From contig CP072660.1 in the NCBI GenBank assembly GCA_029637525.1, forward strand, positions 558,001-622,000: DNA of 64,000 bases, read 5' to 3'. Both the position numbers and the translations under genes were made by a program. Below, piece by piece: positions 5,373-51,984 of this stretch. This stretch comes from Desulfurococcaceae archaeon MEX13E-LK6-19. GTDB lineage: Archaea > Thermoproteota > Thermoprotei_A > Sulfolobales > Desulfurococcaceae. The notes under the pieces were generated by a model that saw only the letters and a program-made list of their open reading frames with translations, ran no database searches and was not told the DNA's origin. Position 1 is the first letter of the stretch, and every line of letters begins with the position of its first letter.

Positions 5373-5873
5373 TTACTCGTATCTTATTCTAACGGGCTTA
5401 CCTATAATTTCGCCGAGAATTTTCTCATAGTCTTTTATGTAATTAGATATCAGTCTATGATCCCTTCTCGGGATCCTAATAACAACTTGTTCGCTTCCAT
5501 CGGGAAGCCATAAGGTGTTGACGCCTAGCAGTATTGCAGGATGAATGACTTGTTCTATAAGTCTTCTTATATCACCTGTTTTTTCAATAATCTTTACTCT
5601 AAAACCTAGTTTCTGTGAAAGGTCTTTGGATGCTTTCTCTAATGCTTTGGGATCGCCGATACCTTGGACAAGTACTATAATTATGTTATCGCTCTTGTAT
5701 GCTTTTATATAACTGCCTTGTCTTAACTCTTTATACTTGCCTTCCTCTAGCTCTATCAGTGTCTTCATTATTGGTATCTCGTATTGTTGTACTTCTCCTG
5801 TATCGACAAGTCTTTGGCAGCGTGGACAAAGTATGCCGCTTTTAACACAGACCTTGTCTAGCGGGTACTTCAC
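5373..5873 (-). CDS. KH-domain NusA-like RNA-binding protein with N-terminal zinc motif
   Basis: A 166-residue protein. Cys residues at 9, 16 and 19 ('CPRC') suggest a small metal-binding knuckle. Two alpha-beta modules follow, containing 'LVQGIGDPKALEKASKDLSQKLGF' and 'HPAILLGVNTLWLPDGSEQVVIRIP', which look like KH domains of the archaeal NusA-like family. It is therefore a predicted RNA-binding or transcription-elongation protein. A second NusA-like protein lies in the rpo operon at 60.2 kb. Family assignment is by pattern; the specific role is unknown. Confidence 0.7.
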   Translation of the reverse strand: MKYPLDKVCVKSGILCPRCQRLVDTGEVQQYEIPIMKTLIELEEGKYKELRQGSYIKAYKSDNIIIVLVQGIGDPKALEKASKDLSQKLGFRVKIIEKTGDIRRLIEQVIHPAILLGVNTLWLPDGSEQVVIRIPRRDHRLISNYIKDYEKILGEIIGKPVRIRYE

Positions 5874-6041
5874 TTAAGACAACACCTCATTTCTGCTTCA
5901 GCATCCTTCTCTTAAAGCTTAAGACATTATTTAGACTATTAACCTTATTCCCTATTTGTATTTTGTTCCTATAATATCTTTAGGATCTTTTTAACTTGAT
6001 TGAATTGAGAACAGATATGTAGGAGTTTTGTTCTTCAAAAT

Positions 6042-6109
6042 AATTAGATGATGAGTACTCCCCAGCGGGAGCTCTTGGCTATGAAGAAAATTCCTTTATC
6101 TGACTTATT
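6042..6109 (+). ncRNA. Candidate dual-guide box C/D sRNA targeting 16S rRNA
   Basis: Within the otherwise empty 5874-6184 gap. Box C ATGATGA is at 6048-6054, a C'-like ATGAAGA at 6081-6087 and box D CTGA at 6100-6103, giving a 56-base core, the normal archaeal size. Flanks AATTAG and CTTATT pair in five of six positions as a terminal stem. The guide after box C, GTACTCCCCAG (6055-6065), is complementary to the universal 16S segment CTGGGGAGTAC. The 12-base guide before box D contains AATTCCTTTA, complementary to 16S TAAAGGAATT, a short distance downstream in the same rRNA. Box D' is degenerate (CGGG at 6066). The 16S sequence is recalled, not aligned here. Confidence 0.75.
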
Positions 6110-6187: not shown

Positions 6188-6292
6188 AGCCGGGGGCGGG
6201 ATTCGAACCCGCGATTAAGCGGGTTTCTGTGACGGGCGGTTGTTTATGGGGCCACTGCAGCCCGCCGCCTTTGACCGCTCGGCCACCCCGGC
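6188..6292 (-). tRNA. tRNA-Cys (GCA) with intron
   Basis: GCCGGGG/CCCCGGC acceptor stem, D-arm GCC..GGC, anticodon stem GCGGG/CCCGC with loop CTGCAGA after intron removal, T-arm GCGGG-TTCGAAT-CCCGC, discriminator T73 as usual for tRNA-Cys. CCA is encoded just beyond (6185-6187). A 30-base intron at 6225-6254 interrupts position 37/38, the canonical archaeal site. The mature form is 75 bases. On the minus strand a TATA-like ATTTAAA lies about 35 bases upstream (near 6326-6332). Confidence 0.93.
6225..6254 (-). other. tRNA-Cys intron at 37/38
   Basis: Thirty bases inserted between G37 and A38. Exon CTG (32-34) can pair with CAG near the intron 3' end, placing both cut sites in three-base bulges, as in a relaxed bulge-helix-bulge substrate of the archaeal splicing endonuclease. 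The intron's own helix is weak. Confidence 0.8.
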
Positions 6293-11422: not shown

Positions 11423-11477
11423 CAACCACAAAACATATAACCCCAAAACAAAAAACACACAAAACCCCGGAGGAAAC

Positions 11478-11552
11478 GCCCCGGTAGTATAGCCCGGCCT
11501 AGTATGCGGGCCTGTCGAGCCCGTGACCCGGGTTCAAATCCCGGCCGGGGCG
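11478..11552 (+). tRNA. tRNA-Asp (GTC)
   Basis: Acceptor GCCCCGG/CCGGGGC, anticodon loop CTGTCGA in stem GCGGG/CCCGT, T-arm CCGGG-TTCAAAT-CCCGG, discriminator G. No intron, no encoded CCA. A TATA-like ACATATAA lies about 35 bases upstream (near 11440). A LAGLIDADG endonuclease gene ends 30 bases beyond its 3' end. Confidence 0.94.
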
Positions 11553-11582
11553 TATCATTCCTTTATACCTTTTCTCTTGCAT

Positions 11583-12503
11583 TTATACAGTTGCCTGATT
11601 TATGTCTATTTTACCATTCTCGTCTACTACGAGCACTAACTTATTCTTGTTCATTGTAAGAATGAATGATTGTAGTATCTTATGTATCTTGTAATTTTGA
11701 TCTTTAAGTCTTTTATTGATCTTTATTAGTTCCTCCATCGTTATTTTGTTCTTATAGTATAGTTGAATTACCTTTGCTTTTGGCAGTCTTTCAATGTTTA
11801 ATAGGTGATTATCAGTAAGTTTCAAGAAATTGTATACACTTTCAAGTGAATTTATTCTTAGTCTGTAAACACCTGGGGTATATGCATAGACTACGTTTCC
11901 TCTTATGGAGTATCTCGAAAATAATTGTTTTTGAATTTCTTTAAGTAATTTCGTATTGCTATTGATTATACAAACCTCGGGCTCAAAGTATAGTCTCTGG
12001 TTTTTCTTTCCACGCTTCTTTACGTAAGGCTGTATTGATCCATCGCTATCTATAATACCTGCTAAAAAGGATCTAAACATATAATCTTCTTCAAATACAT
12101 TAAATTTGTCGAATTCACGTGAAGCTAGTAGCTCAAGTAGTTCTCTGGATACCTTGGCGTAAGCCCTCATTTTATATTTTGCTCGACTATCTTTTCTTAC
12201 ATAGAATCTTATCTTTATCGGTGGTGTAGCTAGCAATAAGAATATGGTGAGGAAACAAATCAGTGTACCCAATCGACTGGTTTCAACATCTATTCTTTTT
12301 GTTTGGAGATAAGCTCTATCTATTGAGGCATCTCCTAAACTAAATCCAAAAGCCCATGCATGAACTTCAAGGGGATTCCATTTGATAACTCTTTTCAGTA
12401 ACTCTCTTAGTGGTATTTCGAAAAGTCTTCTAGCAGTATTTGTGATGTCTATCGTTTTATAAGTGCTGCTTAATTCTCCGGAAGACGTTGTTATATTTAT
12501 CAT
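11583..12503 (-). CDS. Free-standing LAGLIDADG homing endonuclease-like protein
   Basis: A 306-residue protein with two LAGLIDADG-type motifs: 'HAWAFGFSLGDASID' and 'FRSFLAGIIDSDGSIQPY', each ending in an acidic metal ligand. Two-motif proteins act as monomers that cut long asymmetric sites. A possible DNA-reading beta region with basic residues follows each motif ('RKDSRAKYKMRAYAKV', 'KKRGKKNQRLYFEPEV'). It is not inside an intein or an rRNA/tRNA intron here. Composition is AT-rich and near-neutral in skew, unlike its neighbours, consistent with acquisition. The ATG at 12503 lies about 25 bases after an AT-rich TATA (TTATATATTAT at 12513-12530 region). An in-frame GTG at 12512 is the alternative start. 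Confidence 0.85.
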   Translation of the reverse strand: MINITTSSGELSSTYKTIDITNTARRLFEIPLRELLKRVIKWNPLEVHAWAFGFSLGDASIDRAYLQTKRIDVETSRLGTLICFLTIFLLLATPPIKIRFYVRKDSRAKYKMRAYAKVSRELLELLASREFDKFNVFEEDYMFRSFLAGIIDSDGSIQPYVKKRGKKNQRLYFEPEVCIINSNTKLLKEIQKQLFSRYSIRGNVVYAYTPGVYRLRINSLESVYNFLKLTDNHLLNIERLPKAKVIQLYYKNKITMEELIKINKRLKDQNYKIHKILQSFILTMNKNKLVLVVDENGKIDINQATV

Positions 12504-12643
12504 AAATACCACGTATTATATATTATTTTTTAGTATTATTTAAACCTTTTTATTACTTCTTATTATTGTTTAATGCTTTTTGTGTTTGAGTAGGTTTTTA
12601 TGGTGCTTTTTTGTATTGTTTTTTGTTGTGGGGGTGGTTTGTT

Positions 12644-51884: not shown

Positions 51885-51984
51885 CGGGCCCGCCGGGATT
51901 TGAACCCGGGACCTACGGGTTTCCTCCACCCGCTACACTGGGTTGTTAAAAGCCCGCCGCTCTACCAGGCTGAGCTACGGGCCC
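51885..51984 (-). tRNA. tRNA-Lys (TTT) with intron
   Basis: Acceptor GGGCCCG/CGGGCCC, discriminator G, D-arm GCTC..GAGC, anticodon stem GCGGG/CCCGT with loop CTTTTAA after splicing, T-arm CCGGG-TTCAAAT-CCCGG. A 26-base intron at 51921-51946 sits at 37/38. CCA is not encoded. The mature form is 74 bases. Confidence 0.93.
51921..51946 (-). other. tRNA-Lys intron at 37/38
   Basis: Exon CTTT (32-35) pairs with intron GAGG, and the intron body pairs ACCC with GGGT, giving a good bulge-helix-bulge with the cut sites in the two bulges. Length 26 bases. Confidence 0.82.

Follow-up and report, generated by a model that had tools for sequence, protein, structure and literature searches.

A short stretch of this archaeal genome very probably encodes a double-guide box C/D sRNA directed at two adjacent sites in 16S rRNA. 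This reading follows from exact guide matches to the organism's own 16S rRNA, from tests against chance, and from guides and boxes that are invariant in dozens of relatives; we hold with high confidence that the predicted RNA is an archaeal dual 16S methylation guide with sites G886 and A915. The genome, from a thermophilic-type archaeon, comprises a single contig of 1.91 Mb, and the window analyzed here is a 64 kb stretch of it (C1:558001-622000). On the plus strand, the elements occur in the order C, guide, D', linker, C', guide, and D between window positions 6048 and 6103, with 56 nt from box C to box D, and the full sRNA sequence is present as a single copy in the genome. The features of the locus are as follows:

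6047-6104, plus strand: box C/D sRNA body, the stretch alignable to relatives from differing genomic contexts (58.6 bits with the family model; mature ends approximate)
6048-6054, plus strand: box C, ATGATGA, assigned from sequence, with the T, G, A, G, and A of RTGANGA in 94-100% of 48 relatives
6055-6066, plus strand: D' guide, GTACTCCCCAGC, in which 6055-6065 pair with 16S nt 848-858; predicted 2'-O-methylation of G886 (16S nt 851)
6067-6070, plus strand: box D', GGGA, 12 nt after box C, with its GA invariant in 48/48 relatives
6071-6080, plus strand: D'-C' linker, with stem 6071-6073/6077-6079 (GCT/GGC, one U.G pair), loop CTT, and bulge T6080
6081-6087, plus strand: box C', ATGAAGA, assigned from sequence and conservation in relatives
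6088-6099, plus strand: D guide, AAATTCCTTTAT, in which 6089-6098 pair with 16S nt 877-886; predicted 2'-O-methylation of A915 (16S nt 880)
6100-6103, plus strand: box D, CTGA, with C in 98%, G in 100%, and A in 98% of 48 relatives
6188-6292, minus strand: intron-bearing tRNA-Cys (GCA) gene, separate from the sRNA and convergent with it (Rfam tRNA 50.4 bits; anticodon read by hand)
5373-5873, minus strand: gene with a weak NusA-like KH match, the other neighbor of the sRNA

An earlier note on this DNA had described ATGATGA, ATGAAGA, and CTGA in this order and spacing, next to a tRNA-Cys gene. All three boxes are present with the 56-nt distance from C to D, and Rfam recognizes the neighboring gene as a tRNA, for which manual reading gives the GCA anticodon. 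The short terminal stem described in the same note does exist, but is weak: it consists of a G-C pair, an A-T pair, a T.T mismatch, and three A/T pairs, and lies outside the usual kink-turn register. Terminal stems of at least three pairs were found in 16 of 48 relatives, compared with 4.6 expected. Folding of the RNA alone was uninformative (z -1.16), as expected for C/D RNAs. Upstream, TTTTTAACTT at 5988-5997 is only suggestive as a promoter of the sRNA. At the level of sequence, the putative sRNA has all testable features of archaeal box C/D sRNAs with the exception of a good terminal stem. In the same window, two intron-bearing tRNA genes on the minus strand, at 51885-51984 and 6188-6292 (Lys-TTT and Cys-GCA by hand), are found by Rfam and missed by ARAGORN. 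A LAGLIDADG-domain open reading frame on the minus strand (11583-12512), possibly a homing endonuclease, adjoins a tRNA-Asp gene (11477-11553).

Both guides contain exact complements of the single 16S rRNA gene of the organism, in agreement with the earlier note, which had postulated an 11-base match after box C and a second match before box D at nearby 16S sites, and had proposed aligning both guides to this gene. The D' guide sequence GTACTCCCCAG (6055-6065) is the exact 11-nt complement of CTGGGGAGTAC at nt 848-858, and the D guide sequence AATTCCTTTA (6089-6098) is the exact 10-nt complement of TAAAGGAATT at nt 877-886. By alignment to K-12 rrsB, which served as the reference for E. coli numbering after record L134 (1554 nt, with indels) was set aside, the targets correspond to E. 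coli positions 883-893 and 912-921, respectively. In the established 16S structure, positions 885-887/910-912 make up helix 27, and 915-918 belong to the central pseudoknot. The next-best Watson-Crick runs in the organism's 16S or 23S rRNA were 9 nt for the D' guide (23S nt 178-189) and 6 nt for the D guide, which had no rival site of near-equal match in either rRNA. Guide position 5 is paired in both guides, and by the N+5 rule the D-guided methylation already predicted on the third A of TTAAAGG stands as A915.

Such agreement is unlikely to have arisen by chance, as had been argued from the sequence. Among composition-preserving shuffled guides, 11-nt and 10-nt matches occurred at frequencies of 0.57% and 0.14%, respectively, and both match lengths were reached together in only 3 of 200,000 shuffles, even though neighboring sites were not required. 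Markov simulation yielded a C/D-like architecture 0.2 times per 64 kb, in no case with two guides that matched at least 9 nt.

Homologues of the sRNA were found widely across the class. A DNA search of 60 relatives yielded about a dozen clear homologues, with BLAST matches down to 3.6e-9, and a sequence-only model was built on 12 sequences. The window sequence scored 58.6 bits (E = 3.4e-17) with this model, of which it is itself one of the 12 sequences, and no second match was detected in the 64 kb window. At E values up to 0.01, the model matched 104 of the class's 229 genomes (59 of the 122 good assemblies); the weakest of these 104 are mixed, some having one guide only and others representing another sRNA family. 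Elsewhere in the phylum, five genomes from other classes also contained matches, and several genera of the organism's own family had none at the E threshold used in the model search.

Within the best 48 matches, D' guide positions 6056-6059 and 6061-6063 and D guide positions 6091-6098 were invariant (48/48), position 6060 was retained in 47/48, and the box bases that form G.A pairs were invariant or nearly so, with the D'-C' linker varying in both sequence and length. As the sequences share descent, these values do not count independent events. The target sequence is almost identical across all matched 16S genes, and the sole common guide change, A6064 to G, turns an A-U pair into a G-U pair; guide-target agreement was checked directly in the part of the set with a 16S match, which many metagenome-derived genomes lack. 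Nucleotide similarity between the locus and its relatives is essentially confined to 6047-6104, the exceptions being one unrelated match to a tRNA and, in some sequences, a few flanking bases. Twelve loci belonging to genomes of the same family have the sRNA near the start of a gene that presumably encodes an aldehyde ferredoxin oxidoreductase-like protein, as judged from its protein sequence; this gene is absent near the copy studied here. That similarity ends at the RNA and that the flanking genes differ indicate that selection acts on the RNA itself. In three relatives (L098, L100, and L099; genus g18, family f3), the D guide for A915 is kept and the D' guide is different, an example of guide exchange. 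Separately, a helix-27 query splits near E. coli position 901, 908, or 917 in the 16S genes of ten genomes (G012, G018, G060, G064, G078, G083, G084, G098, G145, and G156), which suggests 16S introns within or beside the segment that separates the two guide targets; of these genomes, at least G083 and G084 have the sRNA as well as the split query.

The position of box D' determines which base the first guide would target. The earlier note had read this box as CGGG (6066-6069), and suggested that the first guide may act without a proper D' box. We instead assign it to GGGA (6067-6070): GA follows the D' guide in 48/48 relatives and places D' 12 nt downstream of box C, whereas CGGG is not conserved. 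The D' position reads CTGA in one relative (L018, genome G053), and its first two bases are variable in the consensus of relatives. With GGGA, the window copy lacks the C-G and U.U pairs that D' usually forms with C', but retains the GA for the tandem G.A pairs. With D' at GGGA, the N+5 site becomes G886, the second G of CTGGGG, and thus shifts by one base from the third G (G887) predicted earlier.

A conserved internal stem further backs this D' motif, so that there is no need to think of the first guide as being without one. Stems of at least two pairs formed in 28 of 39 distinct linkers, compared with 10.8 expected from random re-pairing of linker halves; no trial of 10,000 reached this value (p < 1e-4), though the sequences are related by descent and hence are not independent events. 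The first stem pair exchanges between G-C (21/40 linkers) and C-G (9/40). The stem starts directly after GGGA, and one bulge nucleotide precedes the R and U of C', the position where a kink-turn requires such a nucleotide. Since the linker forms a short stem, C'/D' looks like a kink-turn with a stem of its own.

Two other readings accept the sRNA and differ in the role of this box. That the D guide (A915) alone methylates, with the weak GGGA leaving the helix-27 guide as a non-catalytic aid to binding or folding, is compatible with the missing C and U of CTGA and with the looseness of the first two D' bases across relatives. We nevertheless consider it unlikely given the invariant GA, the near-invariance of the guide core with its 12-nt spacing, and the internal stem, which would stabilize C'/D'. 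Much less probable is use of CGGG, with methylation of G887 instead of G886: an 11-nt guide followed by CGGG would fit the exact-pairing region, but it is the GA two bases on that is kept in 48/48 and is immediately followed by the covarying stem. That the resemblance is accidental, arising in intergenic DNA rich in A+T, or that the copy is dead, would accord with the poor terminal stem, but both ideas can practically be dismissed in view of the shuffle and Markov tests, the 58.6-bit model score, the BLAST matches down to 3.6e-9, and the intact state of all functional positions.

For the favored dual-guide reading, the architecture, complementarity, conservation, and internal-stem covariation were all computed, as was the presence of three kinds of protein genes: the genome encodes fibrillarin (362 bits), Nop5 (263 bits), and L7Ae-family proteins (111 and 76 bits). 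We infer that the sRNA is transcribed, assembled into an RNP, and used to methylate its targets. L7Ae would bind the C/D and C'/D' kink-turns, after which Nop5 and fibrillarin would assemble; each guide would then pair with pre-16S rRNA, and fibrillarin would 2'-O-methylate the target nucleotide that faces guide position 5, counted upstream from D' or D. In this way, the D' guide would cover the 5' strand of helix 27 and target G886, and the D guide would cover the helix 27/central-pseudoknot strand and target A915.

Although pairs of guides are usually said to evolve fast, one two-guide pairing is here kept widely across the class. Two exact methylation predictions, Gm886 and Am915, fall in the small-subunit core. 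The Sulfolobaceae-like members (L088-L093 and L095) carry a D' guide, ACTCCCCAG (ACTTCCCAG in L091), to the same helix-27 strand as the window copy, and their D guide is likewise directed to the same second strand. This D guide is shifted relative to that of the window copy, comprising TCCTTTAAGT plus 1 nt before CTGA, and its N+5 site would therefore be U912 rather than A915. These relatives make it possible to ask whether selection keeps the pairing or the methylation. By holding both strands at once, the sRNA may also play a folding (chaperone) role. We propose only tentatively that it is a deeply conserved Thermoproteota sRNA serving both as an assembly chaperone and as a methylation guide, with the 5' strand of helix 27 and the strand of the central pseudoknot held simultaneously; if so, the shift from A915 to U912 would mean that strand-holding outweighs which base is methylated. 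In archaea, helix 27 of 16S rRNA falls in a predicted hot spot of methylation, being one of the three 16S helices (3, 18, and 27) with the highest density of methylation guides, and double guides to facing strands have been considered possible chaperones (Dennis et al., 2015; PMC4644070).

Other C/D sRNAs were also observed. A second likely double-guide C/D sRNA in the same genome (L123, C1:968000-968450, RNA at about 195-252) has guides ATTACTCCCGGC and AAACTTACCCAG, which match the organism's 23S rRNA at nt 2089-2099 (11 nt) and nt 2134-2142 (9 nt), respectively. Another conserved C/D sRNA family occurs in related genomes (L107, L120, L121, L126, L017, and L024). Its members carry the guide TACTCCCGAC (TACTCCCGGA in L107), which matches an 8-nt stretch of the organism's 23S rRNA at 2091, and in most cases also AAGGCATTTG, which matches 23S CAAATGCCTT (nt 2121-2130 in this organism).

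The sRNA described here contributes one more annotated gene to a class of RNAs that gene finders overlook. No Rfam family matched the sRNA locus at gathering scores. The closest named family is sR15 (RF01146), which has the same box order; the window scored 22.9 bits against it (E 0.057), below the gathering cut-off of 40, and for this reason we do not file the sRNA as sR15, though one relative with the same guide cores (L103) passes at 44.6 bits. The other relatives scanned fell below this cut-off. Judged by these scores, the putative sRNA is a relative of sR15 rather than sR15 proper, and a new archaeal double-guide C/D sRNA. A literature search returned no text naming it in this genus; the supplementary tables of two studies (PMC4644070, PMC11698992), outside that search, may list G886, A915, or U912. 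With known archaeal double-guide box C/D sRNAs (PMC4644070, PMC7994747), it shares RTGATGA/CTGA boxes, internal C'/D' motifs, guides of ~12 nt, two closely spaced rRNA targets, and a genome with fibrillarin, Nop5, and L7Ae genes. Unlike them, it has GGGA as box D' and, in place of a tight loop, a 10-nt D'-C' linker with a short stem.
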